22,416 bases of DNA from Candidatus Zixiibacteriota bacterium. Lineage in GTDB: Bacteria > Zixibacteria > MSB-5A5 > GN15 > PGXB01. Both the position numbers and the translations under genes were made by a program. The stretch is from NCBI GenBank assembly GCA_900498245.1, contig LS998015.1, forward strand, positions 1,679,076-1,701,491, in the 5' to 3' direction. Of the stretch, positions 13,786-22,151 are shown piece by piece. Under the pieces are notes generated by a model. That model searched no databases. It saw only the letters and a program-made list of their open reading frames with translations, and was not told the DNA's origin. Within the stretch, counting starts at the first letter, position 1. Each line of letters begins with the position of its first letter.

Positions 13786-13806
13786 ACTCAAGTTTTTGAA
13801 AAATTG

Positions 13807-13860
13807 TCCGATTTTTATGCAGTAGATGGAGTGATTTACGCATAGAAATCGGATTTTTTT
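13807..13860 (+). terminator. Intrinsic terminator after the aminotransferase
   Basis: The left arm TCCGATTTTTATGC (13807-13820) pairs with GCATAGAAATCGGA (13840-13853) over 14 bp with a single G-U wobble, around a 19-nt loop. Seven T follow at 13854-13860. It closes the tkt-aminotransferase unit. Confidence 0.9.
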
Positions 13861-14022
13861 ATGTTGACATTATTTTTTGCAAAGTCTAACTTCTTATCAC
13901 AGTGGGAATTAGTGATTTCCGCAACCGGGAAAAGCTTCTTTACGGATTTTGTTTGGGAAGGGCATTTTGGGTTTGACTTTAAAGTTGTTTGTCTAAATAA
14001 CTAAGGTAGTCGACCAAAACAC

Positions 14023-14056: not shown

Positions 14057-14098
14057 TTGTTAACCTTTAACCTTATGGAGGGTATCCAAGTTGAATAG
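14057..14098 (+). other. Possible leader peptide ORF overlapping the receptor start
   Basis: A 13-codon frame runs from TTG 14057 (internal ATG at 14075) to TAG 14096-14098, encoding LTFNLMEGIQVE after the start. It overlaps the first eight bases of the receptor gene in another frame. It lies downstream of the tandem SD motif, but the spacing of 17 nt to TTG is long. It could couple translation to the receptor, or be chance. Confidence 0.2.
14077..14082 (+). promoter_or_regulatory. Ribosome binding site deciding the TTG start of the receptor
   Basis: GGAGGG lies 8 nt before TTG 14091. No ATG or GTG is available in frame after the in-frame stop TAA at 14061-14063, so this site supports TTG as the true start. 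Confidence 0.7.
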
Positions 14099-17003
14099 AA
14101 AGATATTCGCTTCAGTTTTTCTGATAGTCTTGGCATTGGCATTTGTACTCCCGCAGTACATCTTTGCCGGGACCGTCGGCAAGATATCCGGGAAGGTAAT
14201 TAACGAGGAAACGAAAGAACCACTTCCCGGTGTCGCCGTATCGCTGGTCGGCACCAAAATGGGTGCCTTGACCAATGAAGAAGGGGAGTATTACATTTTA
14301 AACGTCCCGGCCGGGAATTACACCATACAGGCCCAGTTGATCGGTTTTGCTCCGGTGCAGGTGACAAACACTCAGGTTACCCCCGACCTGACAACGTACA
14401 CTGATTTTTCACTTTCGAAAAAAGCTCTGGAATTGGGCAAAACAATTGTGGTTAGGGCGGAACGGCCGCTGGTAATCAAGGATAAGACCACCTCGGTTGC
14501 TATCACATCGGGTGCCGAACTGCAACAGATGCCGGTCCGGGGTTACGATCAAGTGGTCGGACTGCAGAATAGTGTGGTCCGGATGAATTCCAACGTCGAT
14601 ATTCGTCAGCGCGGCGCCCGCGAATCGCTAGCGTCGGCTCCCGAAATAAACCTTCGCGGCGGTCGTCCCTCGGAGGTGGCTTATTATGTCGACGGTTTTT
14701 CTCAACAAGATCCTCTGACAGGTATATCCACAGCCAGCATCGCCAATAATGCGGTGGAAGAAGTGTCCGTTACTTCGGGCGCCTTCGACGCCGAATATGG
14801 CAATGTGGCGTCAGGTATTGTCAACGTCATCACCAATTCCGGTACCGATAAGTATCACGCCAAAGCGGAATTAGCAAGTGACAACATTGCCAATCCCTTC
14901 GGCTATGACAGTTTCGATCAGAATTGGTATTCGGCCGATGTCAGCGGACCGATCCCGGGAATGAAGAAGGCGTATTTCTTCCTCTCCGGCGAGCGGCGCT
15001 GGTTTGGCGACAGAACACCCTCAAAGATTACCAAGGATTTGTATCAGGAATTCGGCGTTGACAAATTCTATAATCTCAAAGAGCCGCAGCGTCTCCCGAA
15101 TAATACTCTTGACGGGTATTCTTTCCAGGGAAAACTGGATTTTGATCTGACTCAGAATATCAAATTGGCCCTTATGGGAAATGGCTCCCGCGACAGATGG
15201 CAGGAATATCGCCATTATTATATGAACCCGAGATTCACCGATGAAATCAAGCATCTGCCCCGGTATGATGACAAGAATCTTGGCCTGAACGCCAAGATCA
15301 CCCATACGCTGAGTCCGCAGACCTTTTACAATTTGAGTGCGTCTTATTTCATGACGGAAAGAACTCGCGGAGATGGAGTCTGGTTTGATAACACGGCAAG
15401 ATATAAAAGGGCGTTGACCAACCCCAGATATGATACCTATAATCTCTTCCGGCAGGGGGACAGCGTTTTTGCCAGCGATTTGAATCCCAGTATTCCCAAG
15501 GGATCCGAGGCCGACACCTTCGTTACTTTCTACGAATCGTATTGGAACAACTTCATGCATCGCAAGTCCTCATATATCGGATTCAAGGGTGATATAACCA
15601 GCCAAATAGGTCGTAGTCACACTGTCAAGGCCGGTTTTGAATATCAGAGACATACCCTGAGATATTATGAGAATTTTGATGCAACGCTTCAACAGCTCTT
15701 ATACACCAATGTTAATAATTATGGATTTGACAGTCTGGGGAACGAAACGGATGCTCTGGATTTCAAGAGTTCTACAAAGCACCCAATTAATCTGGGGCTT
15801 TATGTTCAGGATCGATTTGAATGGAGTTCCTTCATTCTCAAGGCGGGTCTAAGATTTGATTTGTTTGATTACAAGGCCTTGCGGCTGCGTGACGTGAACC
15901 GGCCCTTTGATCCGGATAATACCGGGAGCAGTACTCTTGACAGAAGCGATTTGACCAGTACCAGGAAATTTTACCGAGCCTCGCCGCGTTTGGGCATTTC
16001 TTTCCCTGTAAGCGATAAGACGCAATTTTATTTCAACTATGGCCAATATTATCAACGTCCGGATTTGACAAATCTATACGCTTCATATAATTTTCTTGCG
16101 GCACGTATTACCGCTGGATCTTATTACCCATTCCCAAGCCCGGATTTGGGCCCGGAGAAGACCACTCAGTATGAGTTTGGTCTCACCCATCAGCTTGGCG
16201 ATATGGTCGCCATGGGCGTGGCCGCTTACTATAAGGATGTTGAAGATCTGACTCAAATCTTCCATCAAAATGCCATTCCCAGGGCATTTGATTATTATGC
16301 GAATACCGATTACGGAACTATTAAGGGTGTCGATTTCAATCTGACCATGAAACGGACCCATAACATCGCCCTTGATCTGAAATATTCGCTCAGCTATGCC
16401 AATGGGACCGGATCGTACTCGCAATCGGCTTTTAATATTGCCTGGAAGAATCCGCAGGGAGGATTTGCAAAACAGACGGCGCCTCTCGATTATGACCAGC
16501 GCCATAGTATCATCGGCATTATCGATATCAGAACCGGAAAAGGTGAAGGCCCGCTTCTGGGCAACATTCGCATTCTTGAAAACACCGGCTTAAACGCCGT
16601 AATCCAGGCCGCCAGCGGTCTGCCGTATACACCGATGCAGATTTATGACGGTGTCAGTCCGAACGCCGCCGTTCAGCAGATTCCGACGGGGCCGATAAAT
16701 TCAGCGAATATGCCCTGGACGTTCAATATTGATATCAAGCTTGAACGGACTTTCTATTACAAGAATTACCGGTTCGTTCCCTACATCTGGGTGAGGAACC
16801 TGCTTAATCGCGAAAATGTGGTCGGGGTGTATGAGGGAACGGGCAAGGCAAATACATCCGGTTATCTGGAGTCGGCTGAAGGCCAGACTCGCGATATTGC
16901 CAGCGGCGGAGAATTCGGTTATCGCTACCGTTTCGAAGAGAATGACCCCAAGAACTATCTCAATCCCAGAATGATAATCTGTGGATTGCGGATGGCTTTC
17001 TAA
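14091..17003 (+). CDS. TonB-dependent outer-membrane receptor with carboxypeptidase-regulatory-like domain
   Basis: A 970-residue outer-membrane receptor. The signal peptide ends near residue 26 (YIFA-G). A carboxypeptidase-regulatory-like Ig domain covers about 28-112 (GKISGKVINEETKEPLPGVAV ... 'GEYYILNVPAGNYTI'). Then comes a possible TonB-box stretch (KTIVVRAERP), a plug domain (about 130-260, with LRGGRPSEVAYYVDG and GAFDAEYGNVASGIVNVIT) and a long beta-barrel ending in Phe (LRMAF), as expected for BAM substrates. The layout is SusC-like, but no SusD-type lipoprotein follows. Instead a secreted CTD protein starts 18 nt later. TTG start with GGAGGG upstream. The ligand is unknown; receptors of this class import glycans, metal chelates or peptides, or take part in surface protein handling. 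Confidence 0.92.
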   Translation: MNRKIFASVFLIVLALAFVLPQYIFAGTVGKISGKVINEETKEPLPGVAVSLVGTKMGALTNEEGEYYILNVPAGNYTIQAQLIGFAPVQVTNTQVTPDLTTYTDFSLSKKALELGKTIVVRAERPLVIKDKTTSVAITSGAELQQMPVRGYDQVVGLQNSVVRMNSNVDIRQRGARESLASAPEINLRGGRPSEVAYYVDGFSQQDPLTGISTASIANNAVEEVSVTSGAFDAEYGNVASGIVNVITNSGTDKYHAKAELASDNIANPFGYDSFDQNWYSADVSGPIPGMKKAYFFLSGERRWFGDRTPSKITKDLYQEFGVDKFYNLKEPQRLPNNTLDGYSFQGKLDFDLTQNIKLALMGNGSRDRWQEYRHYYMNPRFTDEIKHLPRYDDKNLGLNAKITHTLSPQTFYNLSASYFMTERTRGDGVWFDNTARYKRALTNPRYDTYNLFRQGDSVFASDLNPSIPKGSEADTFVTFYESYWNNFMHRKSSYIGFKGDITSQIGRSHTVKAGFEYQRHTLRYYENFDATLQQLLYTNVNNYGFDSLGNETDALDFKSSTKHPINLGLYVQDRFEWSSFILKAGLRFDLFDYKALRLRDVNRPFDPDNTGSSTLDRSDLTSTRKFYRASPRLGISFPVSDKTQFYFNYGQYYQRPDLTNLYASYNFLAARITAGSYYPFPSPDLGPEKTTQYEFGLTHQLGDMVAMGVAAYYKDVEDLTQIFHQNAIPRAFDYYANTDYGTIKGVDFNLTMKRTHNIALDLKYSLSYANGTGSYSQSAFNIAWKNPQGGFAKQTAPLDYDQRHSIIGIIDIRTGKGEGPLLGNIRILENTGLNAVIQAASGLPYTPMQIYDGVSPNAAVQQIPTGPINSANMPWTFNIDIKLERTFYYKNYRFVPYIWVRNLLNRENVVGVYEGTGKANTSGYLESAEGQTRDIASGGEFGYRYRFEENDPKNYLNPRMIICGLRMAF

Positions 17004-17021
17004 GCGAAGTGAGGGAGAAAA

Positions 17022-20000
17022 ATGATAAAAATTAAACTTTTCGTAGTTTTAATAGTGTTACTTCTGACGGTACCGCTAGCGGCGGCCCCGCCGTCGGGAT
17101 GGACCAATTTCCTTCCGGACAAACCGCTTAAGCCTGCCATTATTGATAACACGACGTTTATTGATGCTAATAACATCTTCATGTTTGTTACCAATCATGG
17201 CAACTACGGCAGGGATTTAAGCGGATATTTTGGCTATGATTATGGGACCTGGTTCCCGTATACGTCGATTCCGGATATCATAGCCGGCCGTGATCCATCG
17301 CCATATTATGCCGGGGGTTTGTGGATTGGAGCCATAGATTCGGCTACCGGCCAGACCCGAGTAACCATTGCGGAATATAGCGATGAATATGTCCCCGGCC
17401 CCATGTCGGGAGGCACATTTGAGGTCGATCGGCCGGAATTCAAAGTCTATAAGCTTTACGCGGAAAGCTTAATGACGAATCCCAACCAGACCTATCTTGA
17501 CTATATGCAATATGCGGTGCCGCTGGGAGCGCCCATCCCGTGGGTCATTGATACTTTGGTTGACACCCTGGTTTCCCCGCCGGATACGACCATTGACACC
17601 ATTCCGTATATACTCGGAGATCAGATGTGCTGGGCGGTATTCAATGATGCTAATCCGTCACAGCATTCAAATAATTCTGGGAGCACCTTGCCCCTGGGGG
17701 TCGAGGTCCGACAGACGACCTTCTCGTTTAATCGGGAAGACGCTTTGGGGAATGTGATTTTCTTCCGGTTCCAGGTATTCAATAAAGGAAACAATGTATT
17801 AAGGAATCTTTATTTTTCGGCCTGGAACGATCCGGATCTGGGCGGGGCAGGAGATGACTTCGTCGGGTGCGATACGAACCTGTCTATTGGTTTTGTATAT
17901 AATTCCAATAATAACGACCAGTATTATGGTTCGACTCCTCCCAGCCTTGGCATAGATTTTTTCCAGGGTCCGCTCCTCTTTACGGGAAATGATGCCGATA
18001 CGGCGAAAATGTGGAACACCAAGTGGCCCGGTTATAAAAACATGGGAATGACCTCATTTAACAAGTACATCAACGGCACCGATCCACGCGATAATTTTGA
18101 GAGTTACAATTATATGCGGGGATTGACAAAAGAGGGAAATATCTATATCGATACCTCCACCGGTCTTCCCACCACGTTCCAGCTCAGCGGCGATCCGGTT
18201 GCGGGAAAAGGCGATCTTGATGTTTCGCCAGCCGACCGCCGAATGATGCTCAGCACGGGACCTATCACATTCCGGCCGGGCGATAGCACTGAAATTCTTA
18301 CGGCCATGGTGATTGGACGAGGCGGTGACAGATTATCGTCAGTTTCTGTGATGAAGTATTTCGACCGGTTCGCTCAGTCGGCCTATGATGTCGATTTCAA
18401 GTTAGCCAAACCGCCGGCCTCTCCGATTGTTACCGCGGCGCCTCTCAATAAGACAATTGTCCTTTCGTGGACAGACACCTCTGAGGTGGTCCCCGGAGAT
18501 TATCAGTTCCAGGGATATACCGTATATCAGGGGGAATCGGGCAACGGGCCGTGGCATCGAATAGCCAACTTCGACGTAGTCGACGGGGTAGCGCTAATTC
18601 TTGATGAGGTTCTGGATCCGCTCACCGGCGCCTTGGAGTCCAGGGGAGTGAAATTCGGCACCGATAATGGAATTTCCTATAATTTTGTTGTGCAGCAGGA
18701 TTATATCAATGGCGGGGAACTGAATAATTTAACGGAATATTTTTTCAGAGTCGAGGCATATTCATATGATCCCGCTCAGACCCCCAAGACCTTGACAGCG
18801 GCCAACCGTGATCAGATAGTTGTGGAGCCGTGGGATCAGCCTGCCGGAACTCATCTACAGGCGAACGCCACAGATACACTTCCTGTGACGCACGCGACTG
18901 GGTTATCAGATGGGATAGTTAATGTAGAGGTGCTGGATCCGACGGTCTTTAATGGACATACTTACAGGCTCACTTTCCAGGATACGACTGTCATGGATCG
19001 GTATGGGAATACCGTTAATACCGTGTGGAATTTGTATGATGTTACCGACGCCAAATGGGTATTGAGATATCAGACAAATCAAACCGGAAATAACGACTAC
19101 TATGTAACTGATGGATTTTTGGTAAGGGTTACAGGCCCGTCGACTGCGGGAATAAAACCTGATGATCTGTATACCACCGATGATAGCACCAAATGGGGCT
19201 GGAAAATTCCAGCCGGCACAAGGCGCTGGACTTGGGCGAACGGAGCCGGATTCGAATTTGAGGGGTTTGAAGGTGCCCTTGGCTGGGTAGCGCTTGATGA
19301 AGTCTTCGCTTCGACTACCGGGAAAGTAGGGGTAACGGAAACCAAAAATGTCCTGTTAAAATTGGCCACCGTTGATTCAGTGGGCAATTTCAGCACAGAC
19401 GATCCAAATGTATCTTACGGTTATCGTTATGGCCGAGGTTTTACTGCGCCTCCGGCTCAGCCGAGTTTTGCGGCTCATATGATCAACACCACGGGCAGTG
19501 GTTACGCTTTTCAGGATTTTGCCAAAACTATTCCGTTGTCGGCATGGGATATTGATGTTAATCCACCGCAGCGCCTTACCTTAGGATATTTGGAGAATAA
19601 TGCCGAGCATGGCCTTGTAGACGGAATATATTTCCCGGCGCCAAGCGATACTTTGGCGGCCTATGATCTGGATAACACCGACGCGGCGGCACCGCGGGAA
19701 TTCCTATTCATCTTTCCAAATGCATATAGTGAGACTCCAGATCCCGAGTTTCAGGGTGATCTTCTGAATTCGCCCAATACTCCAACAATGTATTGGGGAA
19801 CATTTAACAGAAGAGTGAGCGCTGTTCCTTATTCTCCCGACAGTTCAGGAGAGGATCAGTTCCTTATCATCCCTTCAAAGATAAATAGCCCTCTGGACAC
19901 ATTCACTTTTGTGGTCCCGGCTCCGACTCATACAGCCAATAATGTAGATCTGGATAAGATAACGGCGGTGCCGAATCCGTTCTACCTGTTCAGCGGCTAT

Positions 20001-20264
20001 GATCCCAATCCGGGGAGCAATCTGCTGAAGTTCCATCATATGCCGACTAAATGTACCATCACCATATACAATTTGGCCGGAGATTTGATCAGAACCATCA
20101 GGAAGGACGACCAGACGCCGATTGCGACCTGGGATCTGCTGACGGAACAGGGTTTACCGGTGGCATCCGGTATCTATATTTATGTGGTAGACGCTCCGGG
20201 ATTTGGTCAGAAGATTGGCAAAGTTGCTATCTTCGTGGAATCCGAAGTTTTGAAGATCTACTAA
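17022..20264 (+). CDS. Large secreted protein with FnIII domain and FlgD/T9SS type A-like C-terminal domain
   Basis: A 1080-residue exported protein of unknown function. The signal peptide ends near residue 22 (LAAA-P). Residues about 30-460 have no domain I can name. They are rich in Tyr, Asp, Asn and Gly and include an acidic motif around 270-285 (DPDLGGAGDDFVGCDT) followed by YYGSTPPSLG and DFFQGP. A fibronectin type III-like domain spans about 464-585 (IVLSWTDTSE ... YFFRVEAYSYD). After another undefined beta-rich part, the C-terminal about 100 residues resemble a FlgD-type Ig or T9SS type A sorting domain: AVPNPF, then CTITIYNLAGDLIRTI, then PVASGIYIYVVDAPG and KIGKVAIF. An SD (GAGGGAG) precedes ATG. 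It sits between the receptor and a PorV-like gene, consistent with secretion to the cell surface. Confidence 0.85.
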   Translation: MIKIKLFVVLIVLLLTVPLAAAPPSGWTNFLPDKPLKPAIIDNTTFIDANNIFMFVTNHGNYGRDLSGYFGYDYGTWFPYTSIPDIIAGRDPSPYYAGGLWIGAIDSATGQTRVTIAEYSDEYVPGPMSGGTFEVDRPEFKVYKLYAESLMTNPNQTYLDYMQYAVPLGAPIPWVIDTLVDTLVSPPDTTIDTIPYILGDQMCWAVFNDANPSQHSNNSGSTLPLGVEVRQTTFSFNREDALGNVIFFRFQVFNKGNNVLRNLYFSAWNDPDLGGAGDDFVGCDTNLSIGFVYNSNNNDQYYGSTPPSLGIDFFQGPLLFTGNDADTAKMWNTKWPGYKNMGMTSFNKYINGTDPRDNFESYNYMRGLTKEGNIYIDTSTGLPTTFQLSGDPVAGKGDLDVSPADRRMMLSTGPITFRPGDSTEILTAMVIGRGGDRLSSVSVMKYFDRFAQSAYDVDFKLAKPPASPIVTAAPLNKTIVLSWTDTSEVVPGDYQFQGYTVYQGESGNGPWHRIANFDVVDGVALILDEVLDPLTGALESRGVKFGTDNGISYNFVVQQDYINGGELNNLTEYFFRVEAYSYDPAQTPKTLTAANRDQIVVEPWDQPAGTHLQANATDTLPVTHATGLSDGIVNVEVLDPTVFNGHTYRLTFQDTTVMDRYGNTVNTVWNLYDVTDAKWVLRYQTNQTGNNDYYVTDGFLVRVTGPSTAGIKPDDLYTTDDSTKWGWKIPAGTRRWTWANGAGFEFEGFEGALGWVALDEVFASTTGKVGVTETKNVLLKLATVDSVGNFSTDDPNVSYGYRYGRGFTAPPAQPSFAAHMINTTGSGYAFQDFAKTIPLSAWDIDVNPPQRLTLGYLENNAEHGLVDGIYFPAPSDTLAAYDLDNTDAAAPREFLFIFPNAYSETPDPEFQGDLLNSPNTPTMYWGTFNRRVSAVPYSPDSSGEDQFLIIPSKINSPLDTFTFVVPAPTHTANNVDLDKITAVPNPFYLFSGYDPNPGSNLLKFHHMPTKCTITIYNLAGDLIRTIRKDDQTPIATWDLLTEQGLPVASGIYIYVVDAPGFGQKIGKVAIFVESEVLKIY

Positions 20265-20282
20265 GCAAGGAGGATAGAAGAA

Positions 20283-21272
20283 ATGAAATATAAATCAGTT
20301 ATAATAATTCTGGTTCTCCTTGCCATAAGCCTGAGTACGGCTTATGCGGGGAGCGAACGCCGGATCGGAACCGCCGGTGCCCAGGAACTGCGTATCCCGG
20401 TTGGGGCACGCGGAACGGCTCTGGGCGGCGATTTGATTGCGGATGTATCCGGTGTGGAGTCGATGTATTATAATCCCGCCGGGATGGCCAATATGGAAGG
20501 CACCGAGGCATTATTCAGCCATCAGCCATATATTGCCGATATCAAAATCAATTTTGCCGGAGTAGCCACGAATATTGCCAATTTCGGCACTATCGGGGCC
20601 TCGGCTAAAGTGGTTTCGATCGGTGATATGATTGAAACCACAGAGGAATTCCCCGATGGCACAGGGCGTGTTTACAGCCCCAGTCTTTCGGTCCTTTCTG
20701 TTTCGTACGCCAAGAGCCTGACATATAACGTAGCTTTCGGTCTTACTGCCAAATTCCTCAGTGAGAGGATATTTGAAGTCTCCGCCACGGGGGTAGCTTT
20801 CGATGTCGGGTTCATTTACAATCCCAATTGGCATGGTGTGAAACTGGGTATGGCTATCAGGAATTATGGCCCTCAGATGAGATTCAATGGCGATGGCTTT
20901 AACCGGACTCTCGACGGGCGCCCGGTTCGGCCGGAAGGGGCCTCCTTTGACCTTCCCAGCGCTTTTGTTCTCGGAATGTCATACAACTTCCTGAATTCCG
21001 GGCCGAATTCGGCCGTGGTTATGGGCAATTTCATGTCAAACAATTATTCACAGGATACCTGGATGGGCGGCGCCGAATATTCGTATGACGGCAAGTATTT
21101 TCTCCGCGCCGGCTATAATTACTCGTCGCAGACTTCATATATCTATGGATTCACGATGGGTGCCGGATTGGCCGTCAATTTCGGGAAAACCAAGGTGACC
21201 TTTGAGTATGCCTGGAGCCAGACCGACGTCTTCGATAATAATCAGTATTTTACCGGCAAAATAAACTTCTAA
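20283..21272 (+). CDS. PorV/PorQ family outer-membrane barrel protein
   Basis: A 329-residue outer-membrane protein. The signal peptide ends near residue 22 (AYA-GSE). The start of the mature protein has the family hallmark: GTAGAQELRIPVGARG, then ALGG, then ESMYYNPAGMANM. The rest alternates like a FadL-type beta-barrel (GVAFDVGFIYNPNWHGVKLGMAIRNYG) and ends in Phe. In Bacteroidetes, PorV (LptO) takes secreted proteins from the type IX translocon and delivers them for surface attachment, and PorQ is a related subunit. Here the gene lies 18 nt after a protein with a T9SS-like C-terminal domain, with a strong AAGGAGGA (20267-20274). A dedicated carrier role for the neighbour is an inference. 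No PorU, Sov or PorKLMN gene is in the window. Confidence 0.85.
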   Translation: MKYKSVIIILVLLAISLSTAYAGSERRIGTAGAQELRIPVGARGTALGGDLIADVSGVESMYYNPAGMANMEGTEALFSHQPYIADIKINFAGVATNIANFGTIGASAKVVSIGDMIETTEEFPDGTGRVYSPSLSVLSVSYAKSLTYNVAFGLTAKFLSERIFEVSATGVAFDVGFIYNPNWHGVKLGMAIRNYGPQMRFNGDGFNRTLDGRPVRPEGASFDLPSAFVLGMSYNFLNSGPNSAVVMGNFMSNNYSQDTWMGGAEYSYDGKYFLRAGYNYSSQTSYIYGFTMGAGLAVNFGKTKVTFEYAWSQTDVFDNNQYFTGKINF

Positions 21273-21291: not shown

Positions 21292-21324
21292 AGCCGGACG
21301 GTTTCCGCCGTCCGGCTTTTTTTT
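21292..21324 (+). terminator. Intrinsic terminator closing the receptor cassette
   Basis: A perfect 10-bp GC-rich stem AGCCGGACGG / CCGTCCGGCT (21292-21301 and 21308-21317) with a 6-nt loop, followed by a run of eight T at 21317-21324. It lies 20 nt after the PorV-like stop codon. Confidence 0.95.
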
Positions 21325-21359
21325 GTTGTATATCACACCCGGAAGATTTAATTAGATGT

Positions 21360-22151
21360 ATGAAATATGGTTTGGTTGTTAGAAATGTGACGGACCTGCG
21401 AGCGAAGCCGAAATTTCATTCGGAACGCCGCAGTCAGATCCTGTTCAATGAATTCGTCCGGATGGGGAATATCGTAAATGGCTACTGCCATATTTGTCAG
21501 AGTGATGGCTATCAGGGTTGGGTCGATATACGGGCGCTAAAAGCCTTGCCAGAGAAAAACCATAAATTTAAACCTGACTGCCTGATAAATACCCCTGTCT
21601 GCCATCTGAAATCTGGTTCCTTAGGTAGCACCGCAAACCTGCCGTTTATCTTCTATGGTACATCTATGAAACTATCGAATATTCGAGGGACCACCGCAAT
21701 AGTTGCAGATTGGCGCGGAAATGAATATAGGGTATCAAGAGGGCAGATTTCTCCAGTGGGCAAGTCCGGACAATTGGCAGGTAAAGGCAGACAGATCGTG
21801 ACTGAAGCCGGGAGATTTATTGGTACCCCATATCTATGGGGCGGGATTACCTCTTTTGGAATCGACTGTTCCGGCTTAGTTCAAATGGTTTATCGATCAA
21901 TCGGAAAACACTTGCCGCGGGATAGTTCTCAGCAGAGAAAGACGGGACGGAAAGTAAATCTTGAGGCTGTCAAATCAGGTGACCTGTTTTTCTTTAAGGG
22001 CCACGTTGCCATCGCCATTGATAAATACCGGATGATTCATTCTTCGCTCGGTTCCGGCGGCGTCTATTACAATTCAATGAATCCCCACGATCCTGACTAT
22101 CGAAGCGATCTGGCCGATATCTTTATCGAGGCCAGGAGGGTGCTTAAATAG
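21360..22151 (+). CDS. SH3b-NlpC/P60 murein peptide endopeptidase, no signal peptide
   Basis: A 263-residue cysteine peptidase resembling gamma-D-glutamyl-L-diamino acid endopeptidases (YkfC / dipeptidyl-peptidase VI type). Two bacterial SH3-like modules appear in the N-terminal half (about residues 4-62, with DLRAKPKFHSE and GYQGWVD; and about 75-130). The NlpC/P60 domain follows (about 140-260). The catalytic cysteine is C170 (GIDCSGLVQ) and the catalytic histidine H215 (GHVAIAID), with H227 in MIHSS as the likely third residue. No signal peptide or membrane helix is present, so it should act in the cytosol on imported murein peptides. A dipeptide epimerase-like frame begins at its stop codon, which supports that role. 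The ribosome binding site is weak (GGAAG, about 14 nt upstream). Confidence 0.88.
   Translation: MKYGLVVRNVTDLRAKPKFHSERRSQILFNEFVRMGNIVNGYCHICQSDGYQGWVDIRALKALPEKNHKFKPDCLINTPVCHLKSGSLGSTANLPFIFYGTSMKLSNIRGTTAIVADWRGNEYRVSRGQISPVGKSGQLAGKGRQIVTEAGRFIGTPYLWGGITSFGIDCSGLVQMVYRSIGKHLPRDSSQQRKTGRKVNLEAVKSGDLFFFKGHVAIAIDKYRMIHSSLGSGGVYYNSMNPHDPDYRSDLADIFIEARRVLK

Follow-up and report, generated by a model that had tools for sequence, protein, structure and literature searches.

Do three adjacent genes in a Zixibacteria genome, encoding a TonB-dependent receptor, a secreted protein and a PorV-like outer-membrane protein, form a single surface-uptake unit in which the secreted protein has a carrier of its own? 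The question is raised by a 22,416-nucleotide stretch of the genome of a Candidatus Zixiibacteriota bacterium (contig LS998015.1), referred to here as the window. Gene A (14091-17003) encodes a TonB-dependent outer-membrane receptor of 970 residues with a TTG start; gene B (17022-20264) encodes a secreted protein of 1080 residues that is a predicted cargo of the type IX secretion system (T9SS); and gene C (20283-21272) encodes a PorV/PorQ-family outer-membrane protein of 329 residues, proposed here as a dedicated shuttle for B. All three lie on the plus strand, form an operon and are separated by gaps of 18 nucleotides (A/B and B/C). We propose, at just short of an even chance, that this is an ancient, co-inherited surface-uptake operon in which B would be exported by the T9SS, C would be its private carrier, a module within B is swapped between relatives, and B would pass its ligand to A.

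The three genes recur as a unit. We searched for B orthologues in 60 relatives, most of them metagenome-assembled genomes (G044, G055 and the genome of the window, G000, are single contigs), fetched their surroundings and also scanned bacterial and archaeal genomes. This yielded 57 loci with a full-length B and readable sequence on either side, and 56 of them carry A-B-C in this order on one strand. These trios span Zixibacteria, Latescibacterota, Eisenbacteria, Gemmatimonadota, Delongbacteria and Calditrichota, and one record with a B match is titled Cloacimonetes. Among the relatives, A lies just 5' and C just 3' of B wherever the contig allows, and the outer neighbours vary by genus. The recurrence, over at least six phyla, is far beyond chance and, together with the single clade formed by the trio C proteins (see below), indicates that A, B and C have long been inherited together. 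The genome of the window also holds a second, diverged trio in the same order (G000:C1:790000-806000, L081:1774-8175; identities of 29% for A, 24% for B and 37% for C), as well as an A beside a short B paralogue.

In the mechanism that we propose, B would use its putative Sec signal and then be carried across the outer membrane by SprA, the translocon of the T9SS encoded in this genome. C, belonging to this cargo, would collect B or hold it at the surface, whereas other cargo, as a common pool, would rely on the PorV encoded beside PorU. Once exposed, B would bind a ligand through its beta-supersandwich domain and its module and pass it on to A, the TonB-driven channel. Block-wise swaps of the module through recombination with related genes, tandem-array paralogues of the same genome among them, would let the exposed specificity shift without altering delivery (by the sorting domain and C) or transport (by A).

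The most unusual feature of the locus, which the preliminary description of the window missed, is this exchangeable module. All on the plus strand, B comprises an N-terminal beta-supersandwich domain (residues 28-455; 17103-18386), assigned by structural match of the predicted model; a linker region that is beta-rich in that model and of intermediate divergence in profiles along B (residues 462-690; 18405-19091); the module, delimited by sequence comparison and of type I in this genome (residues 692-955; 19095-19886); and a long-form T9SS sorting domain, recognized by sequence and fold (residues 957-1080; 19890-20261). The module, about 260 residues long and placed between conserved N-terminal sequence and the sorting domain, occurs in four or more sequence types. 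Four sister pairs carry differing modules in otherwise near-identical operons (G006/G013, G023/G032, G000/G001 and G036/G038), with the exception that in G000/G001 the N-terminal part of B is also only 65% identical. In G006/G013, for example, identity is 97% for A, 95% for the N-terminal part of B, 17% for the module, 89% for the sorting domain and 98% for C. Identity profiles along B drop over the module to what chance would give and recover to 70-100% in the sorting domain. Modules of the same type are about 50-75% identical across distant genera. Types I, III and IV show remote relatedness along most of their sequence; type II shares only short matches with the others. On a tree of A and C, module types are without phylogenetic signal: five module states need 14 changes, against a mean of 14.4 for shuffled labels. 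Likewise, distances of A, the N-terminal part of B, the sorting domain and C intercorrelate at 0.75-0.89, compared with only 0.09-0.19 for the module; because pairwise distances are not independent, such correlations are only a hint.

All four module types also occur nested within the N-domain of B paralogues, many of which lie in tandem arrays and which end in either a canonical type A sorting domain or a dockerin-like tail. In a tree of type II modules, the copies in the trios of G032, G020 and G054 cluster with array copies from their own genomes. The nesting and the same-genome grouping make recombination with paralogues the likely source of the swaps, and interspecies transfer would be a further route. 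In the genome of the window, a search for types I and II found type I once, in the trio itself, and type II not at all. The dockerin-like tails occur in the paralogues at L089:6588-8051, L199, L200, L202, L204-L207, L212, L213 and L215; that of L089 scores 21.2 bits, below the cut-off of 22.9. The genome also encodes cohesin domains that score over their cut-off, and surface display through cohesin–dockerin pairs is possible.

We considered what the module might face. Covariation of A with module type was examined and rejected, as the members of sister pairs differ in A at scattered positions and the distance correlation between A and the module is 0.09. Because it does not follow A, the module is probably not in contact with A, and more likely faces a ligand, a phage or a neighbouring cell. 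The sequence pattern hints at a diversifying binding surface, which could present either ligand specificity or an antigenic face. In the predicted model of the window's own B, the module region falls into blocks with a predicted local distance difference test score of about 29-80; given this low confidence we leave its fold uninterpreted, and a model of the type II module gave no convincing structural match. The variation could reflect pressure from phages or predators on an exposed epitope, an immune-type escape, rather than choice of ligand. Block replacement without phylogenetic signal and the independence of the module from A are consistent with escape, and mosaic surface alleles unrelated to phylogeny in Porphyromonas gingivalis are a precedent (PMC5266723). 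However, types I, III and IV have an ancient origin and can still be recognized in different phyla, and a small set of ligand types would fit the data equally well; we regard escape as possible but somewhat doubtful.

A carrier reserved for B is the second element of the uptake-operon reading. As the preliminary description had it, C belongs to the PorV family: it scores 174 bits against the PorV/PorQ family model NF033709 (cut-off 90), and its best solved structure by profile is PorV (6h3i, E 2e-25). It falls below the cut-offs of both the PorV equivalog NF033710 (70 bits versus 250) and the PorQ model (93 bits versus 220), and has no Slam/DUF560 family match in Pfam or NCBIfam. In a tree with eight of this genome's own PorV paralogues, the PorV beside PorU among them, the C proteins of 29 trios group in a single clade (SH-aLRT 100), and the C of the second, diverged trio is its nearest neighbour. 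By these sequence comparisons, C is not simply the general PorV, nor PorV proper, and its candidacy as a dedicated PorV-type carrier co-inherited with B is well supported. The earlier suggestion that one PorV-type protein handles one cargo holds as far as the separate clade and the co-inheritance with B go, and C is predicted to carry B.

C could, conversely, be a permanent outer-membrane anchor resembling PorP/SprF, with the general PorV collecting B and C keeping it beside A. Type B cargo is bound by PorP-like proteins, which keep it at the surface (PMC9143113), the score of C below the PorV equivalog cut-off suits such a role, and the conserved tail of B past the usual end of a sorting domain could mean that B is retained rather than cleaved. 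The best solved-structure match of C is nevertheless a shuttle, PorV, and PorP belongs to another family; the tests run here fit shuttle and anchor alike. On balance, we consider an anchor unlikely.

The third element, ligand transfer from B to A, depends on whether the two are partners. A carries a TonB barrel (PF00593, 88.8 bits), a plug (PF07715, 29.7 bits) and an N-terminal CarboxypepD_reg domain (PF13715, 68.7 bits), and its orthologues lie 5' of B in the relatives. This layout agrees with the SusC-like architecture described before, but A is not a SusC: it scores 52 bits against the SusC/RagA model TIGR04056, far from the cut-off of 368. The reported lack of a SusD partner is borne out, as B matches no SusD family in Pfam and has no lipobox cysteine. 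The N-domain of B has a predicted fold matching the N-terminal domain of glucodextranase (GH15) and of GH116, GH94 and GH65 enzymes (GH, glycoside hydrolase family; Z 18-19 over 239-276 residues, 3.2-4.3 Å, 11-12% identity) without their catalytic barrel. The modelled fold is thus that of a non-catalytic domain of carbohydrate-active enzymes, and a shared fold does not in itself prove sugar binding. The N-domain dominated the comparison of the whole model, so that other folds going unseen in it is no evidence against them.

If the genes were co-transcribed without a partnership, as a matter of dosage, A would import a ligand of its own and B would be an adhesin or glycan-binding coat with C as its carrier. 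In line with this, the N-terminal part and the sorting domain of B are tied to C (partial r 0.43 and 0.44, respectively) above A (0.14 and 0.13), the module is tied to neither, and B paralogues with the same N-domain and modules stand in tandem arrays that lack A and C. On the other hand, the distances behind these correlations are not independent, which makes them weak evidence; every trio, in whichever phylum, includes A; no B and C locus has A replaced by another gene where the upstream flank is readable; and this genome itself has both the second A-B-C trio and the A beside a short B paralogue. We judge independent functions to be unlikely.

Uptake through the proposed operon also requires that B reach the surface by the T9SS. 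The NCBIfam sorting-domain model TIGR04183 matches residues 995-1060 of B at 25.2 bits (cut-off 23), and the sorting domain of a same-genus homologue (86% identical over the domain) folds like those of PorZ (Z 10.2), PorU (9.2), mirolase (8.7), RemA (8.1) and NucA (8.0); Foldseek pairs the same homologue domain with the C-terminal domain of NucA (probability 1.00). The long form ends beyond the usual end in a conserved tail, ...GKMAVFxExEVLxIY (...GKVAIFVESEVLKIY in B). B has no match to CHU_C, the type B signal. The C terminus is T9SS type A-like, in line with the earlier description, with FlgD_ig below threshold (16.7 bits, cut-off 27).

Profile searches of the 3.5-Mb genome and reading of selected stretches revealed the core of a T9SS. 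SprA is recognized by TIGR04189 at 611 bits over adjoining segments (cut-off 200), and PorU by NF033707 at 691 bits (cut-off 420), the latter adjoining a PorV-family gene and an M6-type cargo. Moreover, 49 places match the Pfam sorting domain PF18962, and nine PorV-family matches exceed the family cut-off on their own. Taken together, these sequence features mark B as a type A-like T9SS cargo, predicted to pass through SprA and to be processed by PorU. With a trio that recurs, core T9SS genes present and a C-terminal domain that scores over a sorting-domain cut-off, the preliminary description was largely right. No paper on T9SS in Zixibacteria was found in the literature searched.

Several observations weigh against the uptake-operon reading. 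The sorting domain of B exceeds the cut-off of one model only, TIGR04183, by 2 bits, and PF18962 is silent on B; with the sub-threshold FlgD_ig score, this would suit an ordinary Ig/FlgD-like repeat in a protein that is no T9SS cargo, but such an identity is highly improbable for a domain at the very C terminus whose structural matches are led by T9SS sorting domains, in a protein with short paralogues that carry canonical sorting domains, a PorV-family neighbour, and SprA and PorU in the same genome. Genes for the PorL/M/N motor (GldM PF12080, GldN TIGR03523) were not found in the genome; these models were equally silent in control genomes, so their silence says nothing about motor or ring genes here. 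The module type, as noted, does not track A. Finally, five proteins of this genome have similar long sorting domains with no PorV gene in the stretch read; they led us to reject the idea that each long-form sorting domain has its own PorV, and indicate that this type of signal does not depend on a private PorV.

Four of these five are tandem genes (G000:C1:1929000-1940000, L216:4083-14895) encoding secreted proteins of about 850-900 residues that end in GKFVIIK or GKLVIIM; neither a PorV nor a TonB receptor gene was found in the stretch read there. Elsewhere in the genome, further PorV-family genes adjoin large secreted proteins (G000:C1:2398000-2414000, L085; 1601000-1617000, L084), with two in tandem behind an 834-residue protein in L085. 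Judged from gene order, PorV-family proteins may routinely be paired with cargo in this genome.

How does the trio compare with known systems? By analogy, it is best read as a T9SS counterpart of TbpA/TbpB–Slam. The Slam systems (TbpA/TbpB–Slam1 and HphR/HphA/HsmA; type XI) likewise co-encode a TonB receptor, a partner protein at the surface or past it, and a dedicated outer-membrane delivery protein; HphR/HphA/HsmA is one such receptor–partner–delivery cluster served by Slam (PMC8560813), and TbpB neighbourhoods have been described (PMC8406197). In contrast to these, the trio would use T9SS delivery (SprA and a PorV-type protein) guided by a C-terminal signal, its B is no lipoprotein, its module is block-exchanged, and it occurs in other phyla. 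The SusC/SusD and RagA/RagB pairs resemble it in joining a TonB receptor with a carboxypeptidase-regulatory N-domain to a co-encoded surface protein, and RagAB also shows mosaic alleles (PMC5266723). They differ in that A fails the SusC model, B has neither a SusD domain nor a lipobox, and a third gene, for delivery, is present. The earlier comparison with a SusCD pair survives as an analogy only.

With respect to delivery, the closest parallel is Flavobacterium johnsoniae, in which cargo-specific outer-membrane shuttles of the PorP/SprF kind are encoded beside, and pair with, type B cargo (PMC12618676, PMC9143113); the trio instead combines a type A-like signal with a PorV-family protein and adds a TonB receptor. 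For type A signals, recognition is stated to fall to a single PorV (PMC12618676). Here, a type A-like signal seems, in a widely conserved case, to be paired with its own PorV-family partner, which, if true, would be a variant of the one-PorV rule and would link the T9SS to TonB-driven uptake in lineages where this secretion system is almost unstudied. For the module, the terminal adhesin variants of P. gingivalis Kgp are similar in being T9SS-exported, interchangeable and unrelated to strain phylogeny (PMC5266723). Those variants belong to one species, whereas the trio modules vary between genera and also sit in array paralogues, nested in the N-domain. The module could serve as a natural experiment in which the cargo varies against a constant sorting domain, carrier and receptor, pointing to which parts have to fit one another for delivery and transport and which one faces outwards. 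More speculatively, and in our view with a rather low likelihood, the trio might represent a third kind of receptor, surface protein and delivery system after Slam/TbpAB and SusCD, one using the T9SS and a private PorV in several candidate phyla and diversified by recombination with tandem paralogue arrays that store ligand or antigen modules.

The boundaries and signals of the operon agree with the preliminary description. GGAGG-like ribosome sites precede all three genes, and the unit lies between two strong intrinsic terminators on the plus strand: upstream, at 13806-13861, a hairpin (about 13806-13854) followed by T7 (folding z -5.3), and downstream, at 21292-21325, a hairpin with an 11-bp GC-rich stem (21292-21317) followed by T8 (z -4.5). 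Read by eye, the N termini of A, B and C resemble Sec signal peptides without a lipobox cysteine, that of B having a hydrophobic stretch that ends in PLAAA and contains no cysteine. An Rfam search of the window gave no match and so no riboswitch clue to the ligand, and B has no match in PHROGs. The SprA gene (G000:C1:2337000-2344000, L088) is flanked by murB on one side and by the selenocysteine genes selA/selB on the other. The PorU-linked PorV (G000:C1:2522375-2525098, L080:7375-10098) has 907 residues, of which about 500 are extra and split the PorV match after its first, N-terminal part. Directly 3' of the trio in the window, a gene at 21360-22151 encodes an NlpC/P60 peptidase with an SH3 domain, which is kept beside the trio only within the same family.

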